From positions 1 through 32,567 of the forward strand of contig JAJRWG010000055.1 of assembly GCA_024276895.1 (NCBI GenBank): DNA of 32,567 nt. Reading direction: 5' to 3'. The notes under the pieces are model-generated. The model saw only the letters and a list, made by a program, of their open reading frames with translations. It made no database searches and was not told where the DNA came from. The translations under genes and the position numbers were made by a program. The stretch's first letter is position 1, and each line of letters opens with the position of its first letter. Of the stretch, positions 9,338-18,442 are shown piece after piece. The DNA is from Bacteroidota bacterium (lineage in GTDB: Bacteria > Bacteroidota > Bacteroidia > Bacteroidales > F082).

Positions 9338-9385
9338 GAATTCAGACAGCTGTTGAACAATGACAGCTTAAAAACAACAAACCTC

Positions 9386-12300
9386 ATGGGATACGATTTC
9401 GGAAGAATAGAAAAACATTGGCAGAAATACTGGGCCGAAAACAAGACCTTCAAGGTGGAAATTGATCACAGAAAACCCAAATATTACGTGCTGGATATGT
9501 TTCCCTACCCCTCGGGTGCCGGCTTGCATGTGGGCCATCCGCTGGGTTACATCGCCTCGGATATTTACGCCCGCTACAAAAGGCACAGGGGTTTCAACGT
9601 ACTGCATCCCATGGGTTTCGATGCTTACGGGCTTCCTGCCGAGCAGTACGCCATCCAAACCGGGACGCATCCGGAAATTACCACCGAAAAAAACATCCGG
9701 CGCTACCGCGAGCAACTGGATAAAATCGGTTTTTCATTCGACTGGGACCGCGAAGTGCGTACCAGCGATCCCGATTACTACAAATGGACGCAGTGGACGT
9801 TTATTCAACTATTCAAATCGTGGTACAACAAAAAAACCGACAAGGCCGAACCCATCGACGTCCTTGTTTCCCGTTTTGAAACAGAAGGCAATGCCGGCAT
9901 TGAAGCCGCATGCGATCCTGTTGAACCTTTCACAGCAGAAGATTGGAATAGCTTCAGCGAAAAACAACAACAGGAGATATTGTTACACTACCGCCTGGCC
10001 TACCTTTCCGATACCATGGTGAACTGGTGTCCCGCGCTGGGAACCGTGCTGGCCAACGATGAAGTGAAGGACGGGCTGTCGGAGCGTGGCGGCTACCCGG
10101 TTGAAAAAAAGCTGATGAAGCAGTGGTCGCTTCGGATAACGGCTTACGCCCAGCGTCTGCTCGACGGCCTTGATAAGGTCGATTTTTCGGATTCACTGAA
10201 AGAAATACAGCGTAACTGGATTGGCCGCAGCGAGGGAGCAAGTTTGGTGTTCCGGCTTAAGACCCCACCCCAGCCCTTCCGTCAGCTGACGGAGCGAGAG
10301 CCGGACACTCCCCAAAATCTTGGAGAAACCCCAAAAGTCCTTCCGTTAGCCGGCAGAGAGGATTCAGGAGGGCTAGAAAAGGACACACCTCGTTTCTACA
10401 ATACCGATGCGAAAACATGGAATGCTTTAAAAGAAAACGTTAAAGAATTGCGAAGAAGTCCTACCGAAGCCGAGAAGTTGCTTTGGGAAAGATTAAGAAA
10501 CAATAAAATCGGCTACCACATTCGAAGGCAGCATATTATTGATTCTTTTATTGTTGACTTTGTTTGCATCAGGAAAATGACAGTCATAGAAATTGACGGT
10601 AAAATACATGATTTTCGAAAGGAAGATGATAAAAACAGAACTCAGGTACTTGAAGAAAATGGATTCACAGTAATTCGGTTTAAAAATGAAGAGGTTTTAG
10701 AAAAAATCGACAATGTCGTAAGAAGGATTAAAGATTATTTGGATAAAAAGGTTTTGGAGGAGACTTCACCTCAGCCCTCAGTTGAAACCCCACCCCACCC
10801 CTCCCCCAAGGGGAGGGAGCCGGACGCTCTCAGGGATTCAGGAGAAACCCAAGTCCTCCCCCTTGGGGAGGATTTAGGAGGGGTAGAAAAAAGAACCTCC
10901 CGCCACACATGCAATGATTCAGAAGGCATCGAAGTCTTCACCACCCGCCCTGACACTTTGTTTGGCGCTACTTTCATGGTTTTGGCGCCTGAGCACGAAC
11001 TGGTTGAGAGAATCGTTACTCCTGATCGCAAAGCGAAAGTGACGGAGTACGTGGACCGGGCCAAAAACCGGTCGGAACGTGAAAGAATGACGGAGGTCAA
11101 AAAGGTAAGCGGTGAGTTTACAGGTGCTTACGCGATCAATCCGCTTACCAATACAGAAATTCCTGTCTGGGTTGCCGATTACGTGCTTTCAGGCTACGGT
11201 ACCGGTGCTATCATGGCTGTTCCGGCTCACGACAGCCGCGACTTTGCTTTTGCCCGCCATTTTAATCTCCCCATTGTCCAGGTAGTCAGTCGTGTAGGTG
11301 AAACCCCTTCGGACCCTTCTGCCTGGGAGACTTCATACGATTCAAAGGAAGGTGTCATGATCAACTCGGGTTTCATTACGGGTCTTTCGGTCAAAGACGC
11401 TGTCAGGGCGACCATCCGGAAAATTGAAGAAATGGGCATCGGCTACGGCACGGTCAATTATCGTTTGCGCGATGCGATCTTCAGCCGCCAGCGATACTGG
11501 GGCGAGCCTTTCCCCATTTATTACAAAGACGGCATGCCCTATCCGCTGGATGAAAATGAGTTGCCGCTCAAACTGCCCAGGGTTGACAAATACCTGCCTA
11601 CCGAAACCGGTGATCCGCCATTGGCGCGCGCCAAAAACTGGGTTACCAGTGAAGGATATCCTTTGGAAATCAACACAATGCCTGGGTTTGCGGGTTCCAG
11701 TGGCTACTACCTCAGGTATATGGATCCACACAACAACGATGCTTATTTTTCCAAAGAAGCTAATGAATACTGGCGTAGTGTGGACCTCTACCTTGGCGGT
11801 GACGAACATGCTGCCGGCCACCTGATTTATGCGAGGTTCTGGAATAAATTCCTGTTTGACCTGGGTTTGGTTTGCGAAGACGAGCCGTTTTTGAAACTGA
11901 TCAACCAGGGGAAAATCCAGGGACGTTCAAGTTTGGTGTACCGTGTTCAGGGTACCGACAGATTTGTTTCGTACAACCTGCGGAAGAAGTACAAAACCCA
12001 GGCCCTGCACGTGGACATTGGCCTGGTGGACAATGATGTGCTGGATGTGGAAGGATTTAAAAACTGGATGCCGGAGTTTAAAAACGCGGAATTCATTCTG
12101 GAAGAAGGGAAATATATTTGCGGCTACGAGATTGAAAAAATGTCCAAATCCAAACACAATGTGCAAAATCCGGACGAACTGATTGAAAAGTACGGTGCCG
12201 ATACCCTCCGGCTGTACGAAATGTTCCTTGGGCCGCTGGAGCAGGACAAACCCTGGGACACCAACGGCATCGAAGGCGTTTTCAGATTCCTGAAAAAGGT

Positions 12301-12823
12301 CTGGCGGTTGTATTTTAATGAAAATGACGATTTGATCGTCACCGGTGAAAAACCGGGCAACGACGAGCTGAAAGTGCTGCACAAAACCATCAAAAAGATC
12401 ACCGGCGACATCGAACGCTTTTCGTTCAACACGGGTGTGAGTGCGTTTATGATCTGCGCCAACGAGCTGACCAACCTCAATTGCCACAAACGCGGGATAC
12501 TCGAACCGCTGGCCGTCCTGCTTTCCCCTTACACACCGCATTTTGCCGAAGAGTTGTGGAAGGCGCTCGGTAACCCGCCCAGTGTCAGCACGGTATCCTT
12601 TCCGGATTACGATGAAAAATATTTGAAAGAAGACACCTTCGAATACCCGGTTTCCTTTAACGGAAAAATGCGGTTCAAGCTGAGCCTGCCCGTTGACATG
12701 CCCAAAGAAGAAATTGAGAAGGCTGCCGTAGAGGCCAGCGAGGCTCAAAAGTGGATTGAAGGGAAAACCATCCGTAAGATAATTGTTGTCCCGAAAAGGA
12801 TTATTAATGTGGTGGTGGGATAA
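9386..12823 (+). CDS. leuS: Leucyl-tRNA synthetase with an in-frame DUF559 insertion in the editing domain
   Basis: LeuRS charges tRNA-Leu. The ATG at 9386 starts the standard [16 protein letters not shown]; the open frame runs 33 bases further up from a TTG. The class I signatures are intact: HVGH (residues 48-51) and KMSKS (918-922). In the CP1 editing domain the threonine-rich TTRPDT (519-524) and the essential aspartate of AHDSRDF (D619) are also intact. At 1145 residues it is about 215 longer than usual for the phylum. The excess lies between SLVFRLK (ending residue 292) and [11 protein letters not shown], a loop between early strands of the editing domain. The extra segment carries a DUF559 nuclease-like domain between two translated repeats (see separate entries). 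No stop or frameshift occurs, so a functional, enlarged enzyme is expected. The phosphatase gene is convergent 4 bp downstream. Confidence 0.96.
10262..10388. repeat. Left copy of the element repeat, translated
   Basis: About 127 bp beginning ACCCCACCCC. It contains the perfect 14-bp palindrome CCGTCAGCTGACGG (10279-10292) and a looser hairpin near 10340-10365. It aligns along its whole length with the right copy: shared blocks are GAGCCGGAC, GGAGAAAC, GTCCT, AGGATT, AGGAGGG and TAGAAAA. It is read as a peptide of the form TPP.P...REPD...GET..VLPL...ED.GG.EK.T.R. Confidence 0.8.
10787..10899. repeat. Right copy of the element repeat, translated
   Basis: About 113 bp beginning ACCCCACCCC. It contains two perfect 8-bp hairpins with 3-nt loops: CCCTCCCC/GGGGAGGG (10799-10817) and TCCTCCCC/GGGGAGGA (10854-10872). 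The two halves are roughly inverted relative to each other. The direct copy at 10262-10388 is more diverged in its stems. Translation gives [13 protein letters not shown], then [10 protein letters not shown] and [12 protein letters not shown], in the same repeat frame as the left copy. The 24 bases before it (10763-10786) resemble the start of the repeat again, perhaps a partial extra unit. Confidence 0.8.
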
Positions 12824-15576: not shown

Positions 15577-16104
15577 ATGAAAAAGATTGTCATACTGTTT
15601 TGGGTAAAAGGCGGCAACGTGGAACGCGCTGCACAAAAGGTTTATGCAATGTTTGACCCGGAAATCACCGACATTTTTGATGTGGCTTCTTTTGATGTAA
15701 GTACCATCGAAAACTATGATTTGATTATCCTGGGTGGATCAACCGTAGGTGCCGAGCGGTGGCTTGACACTAAAGCCGACAACGATTGGAACCGTTTTTT
15801 CAGGAAACTGGAAAGTCACGACCTCAACAGCAAAAACGTTGCCTGTTTCGGGCTGGGTGACCAGGTCCTCTACCCTGATCATTTTGTTGACGGGCTGGGT
15901 GTTTTTAAAGAAGAAATTGAAAAAGCCAAAGGAAAACTTATCGGGCAATGGCCTGTTACAGACGACTACACCTTTACCGATTCGGACGGAATGGAAGACG
16001 GAATGTTTTTCGGCCTTGCACTGGATCTCGACAATCAGGACGAACTGACGGACGAACGGGTAAAGAAATGGACAGATCAACTGAAAGCCGAAACGGGGCT
16101 GTAA
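15577..16104 (+). CDS. Flavodoxin with an atypical phosphate-binding loop
   Basis: A 175-residue long-chain flavodoxin, a soluble FMN electron carrier. The overall pattern fits: beta-1 KKIVILFWV, then YDLIILGGSTVGAERW around residues 47-62, the tryptophan-containing loop, and CFGLGDQVLYPDHFVDGLGVF around 89-109, typical of long-chain flavodoxins. The first FMN-phosphate loop, usually T/S-x-T-G-N-T, reads WVKGGNVE (residues 9-16), without the threonines or serines that normally hold the phosphate. It follows ptb-buk on the same strand (81 bp gap) and has its own terminator. It may serve the reductive side of the same fermentation, but that link is only by position. Confidence 0.85.
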   Translation: MKKIVILFWVKGGNVERAAQKVYAMFDPEITDIFDVASFDVSTIENYDLIILGGSTVGAERWLDTKADNDWNRFFRKLESHDLNSKNVACFGLGDQVLYPDHFVDGLGVFKEEIEKAKGKLIGQWPVTDDYTFTDSDGMEDGMFFGLALDLDNQDELTDERVKKWTDQLKAETGL

Positions 16105-16281: not shown

Positions 16282-16341
16282 CAGCTGGTTTGCGTTAAAA
16301 AAAGTTAACTAATCAGTATGATAAAGGAACTGTGTCAGAGT

Positions 16342-16438
16342 AGGAAATATCAGCAAATAAATACCTTAAAGTCCCCTTTTGGAAGGGGTGCAGGGGTAGG
16401 TTATAAAAAACAATATCATTTATTTGCTGATATTTCCT
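16342..16438. repeat. Palindromic (MITE-like) element 1: GC hairpin core inside 21-bp inverted arms
   Basis: A perfect 21-bp inverted repeat joins 16342-16362 (beginning AGGAAATATCAG) to 16418-16438 (ending CTGATATTTCCT). Inside it is a GC-rich core: TTAAAGTCCCC, a second hairpin CCCCTT/AAGGGG (16373-16388), then GTGCAGGGGTAGG and an A-rich run. The core aligns with the reverse complement of element 2 and with the right half of the repeats in leuS. The arms do not resemble those of element 2. Confidence 0.85.
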
Positions 16439-16489
16439 TTTCAAAACTAAAGTTGTGTTTTATAAATTAAGTAGTTAGTCTATACTCAG

Positions 16490-16578
16490 AAATTCAAAAA
16501 ATGAATGAACTTTTTAATTTGACCCACCCCTTCGCCCCTCCAGCGGAGGGGATTTAATGGAATTCATTTTTTGAATTT
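16490..16578. repeat. Palindromic (MITE-like) element 2: inverted core inside 17-bp arms
   Basis: AAATTCAAAAAATGAAT at 16490-16506 is perfectly inverted at 16562-16578. Inside is the same type of core as element 1 but in the opposite orientation, with the hairpin CCCCTCC/GGAGGGG (16535-16551), GACCCACCCC on its left and GATTTAATGG on its right. The arm sequence is unrelated to that of element 1. Confidence 0.85.
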
Positions 16579-16636
16579 TCAATATATCCCAAGTTTACTA
16601 GTAGCACTGATTATTTACAATAAAAGAAATCCACCC

Positions 16637-18442
16637 ATGAGAAACAAAATCACTTTCGTTGTTGCTTTTTTCCTGTTGTTTTCAGCAAACAACCAACTGT
16701 TTGCGCAAAGCAAAAATGACACTGCAACGGCAGTAAGCGAAAGTGACACCCTGCTCGACGCTTTGCTGTTGCCGGCTGACAGCCTGACGCTAAGCAAGAT
16801 CGACACCAACGTTCGGGCCGGGAAAGACGGGGCTAAAGAACAGGTAAAGATCCTGGCCGAAAGTCTTGACCAAAGAGACCTCCTGATCAAAGATTCACCC
16901 GTTGTGCGGATGCTCGACAGCATGGCCTACCTGAAGTTTTACCAAAGGCGTTACTTTACCGAGACTGACACCGGCCGTACCACCGGAAGCAGGTTTGCGC
17001 ACGGCGAAATTCCCGTTTACCCCGACTCTGTTTACGAGCAACGCATCCGGGCTTTGAATATTGAAACGCCCATCGAACTGACCTACAATAAGGTTGTAAA
17101 GAATTACATCGATCTGTATGCCGTTAAAAAGCGTGAGTTGACGGCAAAAATGCTGGGACTTTCCGGGTTGTACTTTCCGATGTTTGAAGAACTCCTCGAC
17201 AAATATGATATTCCACTGGAAATCAAATATCTCGCCATCGTTGAATCGGCACTAAATCCCGCGGCCGGATCAAGGATGGGTGCAAAAGGCCTGTGGCAAT
17301 TCATGTACGGAACCGGGAAAGTTTATGGCCTGAAAGTCACCTCGCTGGTAGACGACCGCTATGACCCCTACAAGGCTACGGTTGCTGCCTGCGAACACCT
17401 GACCGACCTTTATGCAATTTACGGGGACTGGTCGCTCAGCCTGGCGGCTTACAATTCGGGGGCCGGCAACGTCAACCGTGCCATCAGACGGGCAGGAGGC
17501 ACCAAAAACTACTGGGCGGTCTGGCCCTTTCTTCCTCGTGAAACCAGGGGTTACGTACCGGCTTTCATTGCTGTAAACTACGTGATGAATTATGCAGCCG
17601 AGCACAACATCTACCCCATGCGTCCCAGCACTTTGTTTTACGATATCGACACGGTGACCGTGAACGATATTCTCGCCTTCGACCAACTGAACGAAATGCT
17701 GGGTATCCCGATTGACAAATTGAAATTCCTGAATCCGCAATTCAAAAAAGGAATCATTCCGGCTACCGGAGGCAAGACCTACACCATTCGTATCCCAAGA
17801 AGTTTCGTGGCCGACTTTCTCAACAACGAGCAGGCCCTTTATGCTTACAAAACCAAAAAAGGGATTGAAAGGGAAAAACTCCTTGCCGAGGTTAAAAAGG
17901 CAAAAGACCGGACCATCCACTACGTGCGGAGTGGCGAAAACCTGGGACTCATCGCCAAACGCTACCACGTTTACGTGAGCCAGATCAAACGCTGGAACAA
18001 TTTACGAAGCAACACCATTTACCCTGGTCAAAAACTTGTTCTGTTTGGAAGCAACTCAAGCCGGTACTACCAAAGTTCAAAAGTGCCGGTACAGCGCTCG
18101 GCCTCCAAATCTTACCACAAAGTAAGATCGGGCGAAAACCTTGGGCTGATTGCCAAAAAGTACAAATGTTCAACAACCGACCTGAAGGAATGGAACAACC
18201 TGAAAAGTTCGCGTATTTATCCCAATCAGAAACTCATCGTTTACAAACCTGCCGAAAAGTCATCGTCATCGGTTAAAGACGGGAAATACCTCTACCACAT
18301 TGTCAGAAAGGGAGATACGCTTTGGGATATTGCTCAGGAATACGACGGTGTAACCGTTGACCAAATCAAACGGCTGAACAATATCAGAAACTCCCGCCGG
18401 CTGCAACCCGGCCAAAAAATCAAAATCGCCATGGTGGGTTAA
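16637..18442 (+). CDS. Secreted lytic transglycosylase with three LysM domains (MltD-like)
   Basis: A 601-residue peptidoglycan-cleaving enzyme. The ATG at 16637 gives a signal peptide ending near FAQ (residue 24) with no lipobox, unlike E. coli MltD. The SLT catalytic domain spans about residues 180-330: [13 protein letters not shown] carries the catalytic glutamate E203, followed by [13 protein letters not shown], then [21 protein letters not shown] and [16 protein letters not shown]. Three LysM peptidoglycan-binding domains follow at about 428-471, 492-536 and 552-601, the first two close copies of each other (both contain [12 protein letters not shown]). It acts in the periplasm in wall turnover. 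Two palindromic elements lie in its upstream region. Confidence 0.93.

Follow-up and report, generated by a model that had tools for sequence, protein, structure and literature searches.

The stretch of DNA analyzed here (the window, 32,567 nucleotides) contains two perfect inverted repeats in the region between a flavodoxin gene and a gene for a putative lytic transglycosylase with LysM repeats (Table 1). The first, hairpin A, has arms of 21 bp and the second, hairpin B, arms of 17 bp; both match at 100%, both enclose a spacer of 55 nt, and a gap of 51 bp lies between the two. No other perfect inverted repeat of at least 12 bp with a spacer of up to 300 nt was found anywhere in the 32.6-kb window. 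Ten overlapping inverted 15-mer pairs were observed against none in Markov-resampled windows, and resampling of the local AT-rich intergenic region alone gave any 12-bp inverted pair in 1.5% of cases. The two inverted-arm structures proposed by a sequence-only reading are thus present in their proposed positions and are not expected by chance.

Hairpins A and B are stem-loops of ~95 nt in a head-to-head arrangement, and both loops contain a G-rich core. Comparison of the cores, CCCCTTTTGGAAGGGGTGCAGGGGTAGGT in A and CCCCTCCGCTGGAGGGGCGAAGGGGTGGGT in B, bore out the proposal that they are homologous and mutually inverted. The arms had been held to be dissimilar, whereas in a common orientation (GGAAATATCAGCAAATAAAT and TGAAAATTCAAAAAATGAAT) they align without gaps and are identical at 14 of 20 positions. 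Covariance model scores of the window hairpins (Table 1) are non-independent evidence because both hairpins were in the training set.

Table 1. Genes and element features around the two hairpins (window coordinates)
Feature	Position	Strand	Basis or remark
Upstream neighbour gene, flavodoxin	15577..16104	+	PF00258, E 7.9e-15
Left 8-bp target duplication, AAAAAAAG	16297..16304	.	7/8 identical to 16619-16626
Whole non-autonomous element (MITE), 314 bp	16305..16618	.	Near-full-length copies elsewhere; ends and direct repeats; absent from G001 syntenic site
Left terminal inverted repeat, TTAACTAATCAGT (consensus GTAACTAATCAGT)	16305..16317	+	13 bp
Hairpin A, left arm, 21 bp	16342..16362	+	Perfect inverted repeat; covarying stem
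Covariance model match to hairpin A	16343-16437	+	96.9 bits; window hairpins in training set
Hairpin A, C-run/G-run core in loop	16373..16401	+	Homology to hairpin B core
Hairpin A, right arm	16418..16438	+	Perfect inverted repeat
Covariance model match to hairpin B	16487-16581	-	92.9 bits; window hairpins in training set
Hairpin B, first arm, 17 bp	16490..16506	-	Same arm in L002, L003, L007, L008, L011, L013
Hairpin B, core in loop, orientation opposite to A	16522..16551	-	Homology to hairpin A core
Hairpin B, second arm	16562..16578	-	Perfect inverted repeat
Right terminal inverted repeat, ACTGATTATTTAC	16606..16618	-	Consensus in other copies ACTGATTAGTTAC
Right 8-bp target duplication, AATAAAAG	16619..16626	.	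7/8 identical to left copy
Downstream neighbour gene, putative lytic transglycosylase with LysM repeats	16637..18442	+	ORF list; authors' reading

The 314-bp unit and its IS66-type ends

A search of the genome with the whole region revealed copies of 93-97% identity on four contigs. Those on C336 and C322 are near-complete, those on C287 and C28 cover 224-246 of 341 bases, and many further partial copies share both hairpins or portions of them. The 17-bp arm of hairpin B is repeated on six other contigs and the 21-bp arm of hairpin A in other full copies. Sequence similarity among the copies stops at a common GTAACTAATCAGT on one side and at the same sequence, inverted, on the other; because the flanks diverge at these points, the element in the window extends from 16305 to 16618. 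What had been described as two separate neighbouring elements are therefore both parts of one unit repeated in the genome. The suggestion that the hairpin arms are not the transposase ends was correct, since the true ends lie outside the hairpins.

Both ends of the window copy are slightly off consensus and its target duplication is identical at 7/8 positions; in the sister copies L011 and L013 the duplication is 8/8. Direct 8-bp repeats were found at 30 of 54 distinct candidate end pairs in the retrieved loci (17 at 8/8 and 13 at 7/8), compared with 2/360 reaching 7/8 and 0/360 reaching 8/8 in control comparisons of flanks further out. As some of the 54 candidate pairs are clearly spurious, the true fraction with a duplication is higher than 30/54.

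The criteria applied for a MITE were a length of ~50-600 bp, no gene of its own, terminal inverted repeats, a direct target duplication and multiple dispersed copies. The unit is 314 bp long with no listed ORF contained in it (the ORF list has the downstream gene begin at an early TTG, so that it overlaps the unit on the right). It is bounded by TTAACTAATCAGT and ACTGATTATTTAC, has a 7/8 direct duplication and an empty site in another genome, and is represented by four near-complete or long copies besides that in the window, plus the partial ones.

The empty site was found in a genome of the same genus (G001), where the same gene pair occurs with a flavodoxin 77% identical, a short intergenic region and no element. 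This intergenic region can be aligned on both sides of the insertion point. Neither arm has a word of 10 bases in common with the syntenic site, where the longest match is TTCAAAAAA (9 nt, A-rich). The comparison with an empty site, which the sequence-only reading had called for, accordingly shows that neither arm pre-exists. Taken together, an empty site devoid of arms and arms common to other copies rule out both an inverted target duplication and a pre-existing hairpin as the origin of the arms, which are part of the transposon and are passed on with it.

The start of the downstream gene in G001 agrees with the likely ATG at 16637, and the MITE ends ~20 bp upstream of this codon. A block upstream of the insertion, AAAATGTATATTTTTGC, is conserved in G001 and, from its likeness to the Bacteroidota -7 motif, we infer a putative promoter there; if it is one, the MITE would be transcribed as a long structured leader.

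L019 (C269) and L021 (C146) have common flanks and hairpin A is missing from L021, apparently by deletion between short GGAAAxATCAG matches, which would represent strain variation or an assembly artefact. In L026 (C243) a further small palindrome (CCTGCCTG..CAGGCAGG) interrupts the copy of hairpin B, and an IS66-type end follows immediately. G018 and G001 lack, at the equivalent site, a single hairpin that lies between two genes in G002 (L059).

Complete elements with the same ends were found elsewhere. One, in a Bacteroidales MAG (L247), was detected when named genomes were scanned. It is 1572 bp long, matches the MITE consensus at 14/14 end positions, is flanked by a perfect 8-bp duplication (GATTTCTG/GATTTCTG), and encodes a transposase that shares 70% identity with that of L194. 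In the latter element (G018, 1624 bp) MITE-type ends enclose an IS66-family transposase (PF03050, E 9.7e-35); the contig breaks off where the element ends on the right, and only the ends and the ORF are readable there. Both L194 and L247 have a single transposase ORF, and more distant relatives have GTAACTACTCAGGT and similar ends. ISDge4, a member of the ISBst12 group of IS66 that was observed transposing, has the ends GTAACTGCTCAGCA / GTGACTACTCAGCA, a single ORF and a direct repeat of 8 bp (PMC12898284). The ends common to L247 and L194, the 8-bp duplication and the parallel with ISDge4 make the assignment of the MITE to the IS66 family, ISBst12-like and of the single-ORF type, well supported. 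Overall, we consider hairpins A and B to be parts of one 314-bp non-coding MITE of this family, with a probability of about 0.88.

No PF03050 match was found in the assembly containing the window (G000; ~93% complete, 346 contigs, with breaks at repeats), and a transposase was not recognised in the ORF lists of the unpaired ends L068, L071 and L076. Its lack in G000 weakens the case for current mobility there, not the family assignment. An IS66-type transposase, now missing from the assembly, would have bound the MITE ends and presumably moved the element in trans. Several MITEs (L072, L075, L082, L067 and L093) have the same ends and quite different interiors, indicating that the hairpins travel as passengers between these ends and are not needed by the transposase. 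A group of 189-222 bp (L072, L075, L082, L111, L119, L128 and L133) combines IS66-type ends and perfect 8-bp duplications with interiors of CTTTGTG-type repeats, unrelated to the hairpin MITE. In a literature search conducted mostly outside subscription journals no description of IS66 MITEs in Bacteroidetes was found.

Paired changes in the hairpin arms

Covariation was analyzed in a fixed alignment of 22 hairpins from several genomes, in which 92% of cells are paired. Both sides had changed in 17 of 27 pairs as opposed to 8.8 in shuffles, and double-changed cells numbered 77 against 26.7, with 0/500 shuffles as high; cells in this count are sequences and not independent events. The signal was lost once partners were slid by at least one column. 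The outer stem alone has double changes in 15 of 20 pairs, and the 17 inner stem pairs comprise 55 double-changed, 5 single-changed and 15 unpaired cells. An earlier count of 30 unique arm pairs gave 95% complementarity compared with 51% after shuffling, but the boundaries in that count were freely chosen and our conclusions rest on the fixed alignment. Single-hairpin versions of 150-174 bp in G022 and two-hairpin versions of 269-325 bp in G073 have arms that differ between the genomes yet pair with each other. The palindrome is thus retained while the sequence of its arms drifts.

The covariance model identified 14 hairpins in G000 and one with different arms (L232) in a genome of another family; in a class-wide search these two were the only genomes with matches among 295. 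The hairpin is either narrowly distributed or too divergent elsewhere for the model. Four hairpins in G002 (L053, L057, L059 and L065) are without recognisable IS66-type ends and represent either decayed MITEs or independently dispersed hairpins.

Many of the double changes are from A-T to T-A or from A-T to C-G, for which no G-U intermediate is possible. Such changes, together with the small number of one-sided cells, fit the replacement of an arm by a copy of its partner in replication. Template switching has been described as a source of paired changes of this kind (PMC8794818): a nascent strand at the replication fork would copy one arm from the other and so change both arms at once. We see an even chance that the paired changes in the arms arise mainly in this way. 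Selection may in addition favour the stem-loops for their fold, as DNA or as RNA, and the intermediates that do occur (C-A in L007 and T-G in L061) leave room for ordinary mutation combined with selection.

That selection and not template switching keeps the stem-loops, as a cruciform in the DNA that serves transposition or as a structured leader or antisense RNA, is a serious if less likely explanation. It would account for the strong covariation with a conserved loop sequence, and for folding z-scores of -5.6 and -6.2 (RNA, two strands) and -5.9 (DNA). It is harder to reconcile with the scarcity of G-U or one-sided intermediates and with L072, L075 and L082, which have the same ends and good duplications and no hairpins, so that hairpins are not required for transposition. 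As regards an RNA, a search with Rfam 15 at the gathering score gave no match in the window; sub-threshold matches alone were seen in related loci. Whichever process operates, the related palindromes with paired arm changes form a data set useful to test template-switch correction against structural selection.

The G-rich core and the insertion of the hairpins

Copies of the C-run/G-run core also occur without arms. In the seven genomes searched for DUF559 (PF04480), nearly all loci with this domain have core-like repeats on both sides (L219-L229), using a core pattern that allowed four substitutions and matched once in 41 kb of control loci. In four of them (L219, which is in the window, L222, L224 and L226) direct repeats of 110-220 bp with 68-89% identity enclose the DUF559 gene, and the arrangement supports a probable link between the core and DUF559 genes. 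In the window the domain (10247-10928, E 6.2e-33) is in frame inside the leuS ORF (9353-12823), just before the match to the editing domain of leucyl-tRNA synthetase, and its direct repeats are of ~110-124 bp with 68% identity. DUF559 was also seen inside long ORFs in G018 and G002. A literature search mostly outside subscription journals found no report of DUF559 with repeats. The loci examined nevertheless provide a lead on DUF559 nuclease genes, which in them are nearly always located between G-rich repeats.

In G022, MITE loops at L066/L127 and L131 contain a second, different core of ~28 bp, and the sisters L054 and L060 have only an AT-rich spacer there. A mobile core with a preference for hairpin loops might have entered the loop of an ancestral MITE hairpin before the duplication that gave A and B. 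This would agree with the armless cores, the core variants flanking DUF559 genes and the second core in two of the G022 copies. We regard it as unlikely, as a core-less hairpin representing the empty state was not found, no target duplication is visible around the core, and a single insertion before the A/B duplication would account for everything. It is likewise improbable that the core is a small mobile unit which the DUF559 (Vsr-like) nucleases whose genes it flanks would move preferentially into hairpin loops, its autonomous form being a repeat-DUF559-repeat with direct repeats of 110-220 bp. If this were so, a second type of mobile element, unrelated to the MITE, would have adopted the MITE hairpins as its landing site.

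The sequence-only reading had offered two explanations of the arms. Insertion into a pre-existing hairpin is contradicted at this locus by the syntenic site in G001, which has neither element nor arm. The other explanation, in which insertion of the core itself generates an inverted copy of flanking target DNA, was suggested by perfect arms that differ between the two neighbouring hairpins, and we consider it practically eliminated: identical arms are found at many unrelated sites and not arms specific to each site, there is no arm at the empty site, the actual target duplication is direct and 8 bp long, and cores without inverted flanks, which that reading itself had named as telling against it, are numerous. 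An inverted target duplication is thus ruled out at this locus by the empty site and by arms conserved among copies, and in place of a new insertion signature there is a defined transposon with a family, ends, a target duplication and a complete partner. An accidental adjacency of two unrelated elements, conceivable for hairpins 51 bp apart with different arms, has a negligible probability and is ruled out by common copies of the whole two-hairpin unit, which recurs as such at several sites in G000 and elsewhere (L044 in G002, L107-L109 in G073).

Comparison with known systems

The hairpins resemble template-switched hairpins (PMC8794818) in the double changes affecting both arms and in the few intermediates. 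The cases described there are RNA genes, whereas here the process would act on a transposon. With DUF559 (PF04480) genes and their flanking repeats the MITE shares the same C-run/G-run core, but in the MITE the cores are located in hairpin loops, with no DUF559 gene in between.

ISBst12-like IS66 elements such as ISDge4 (PMC12898284) have the same GTAACT..TCAG form of ends and the 8-bp direct repeat; unlike them, the element in the window lacks a gene for a transposase and could be mobile in trans at most. The text of a MITE review has no mention of IS66 or Bacteroidetes. The element is similar to bacterial MITEs in general, being short, without a coding gene of its own, and having matching ends, a direct target duplication, an AT-rich intergenic site and strong predicted stem-loops. 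On loss of their ends, degraded copies come to resemble REP-like palindromes, as reported for QMITE2. What distinguishes the window MITE from other bacterial MITEs is that its interior has two separate palindromes, in which the arms covary and the G-rich loop is conserved.
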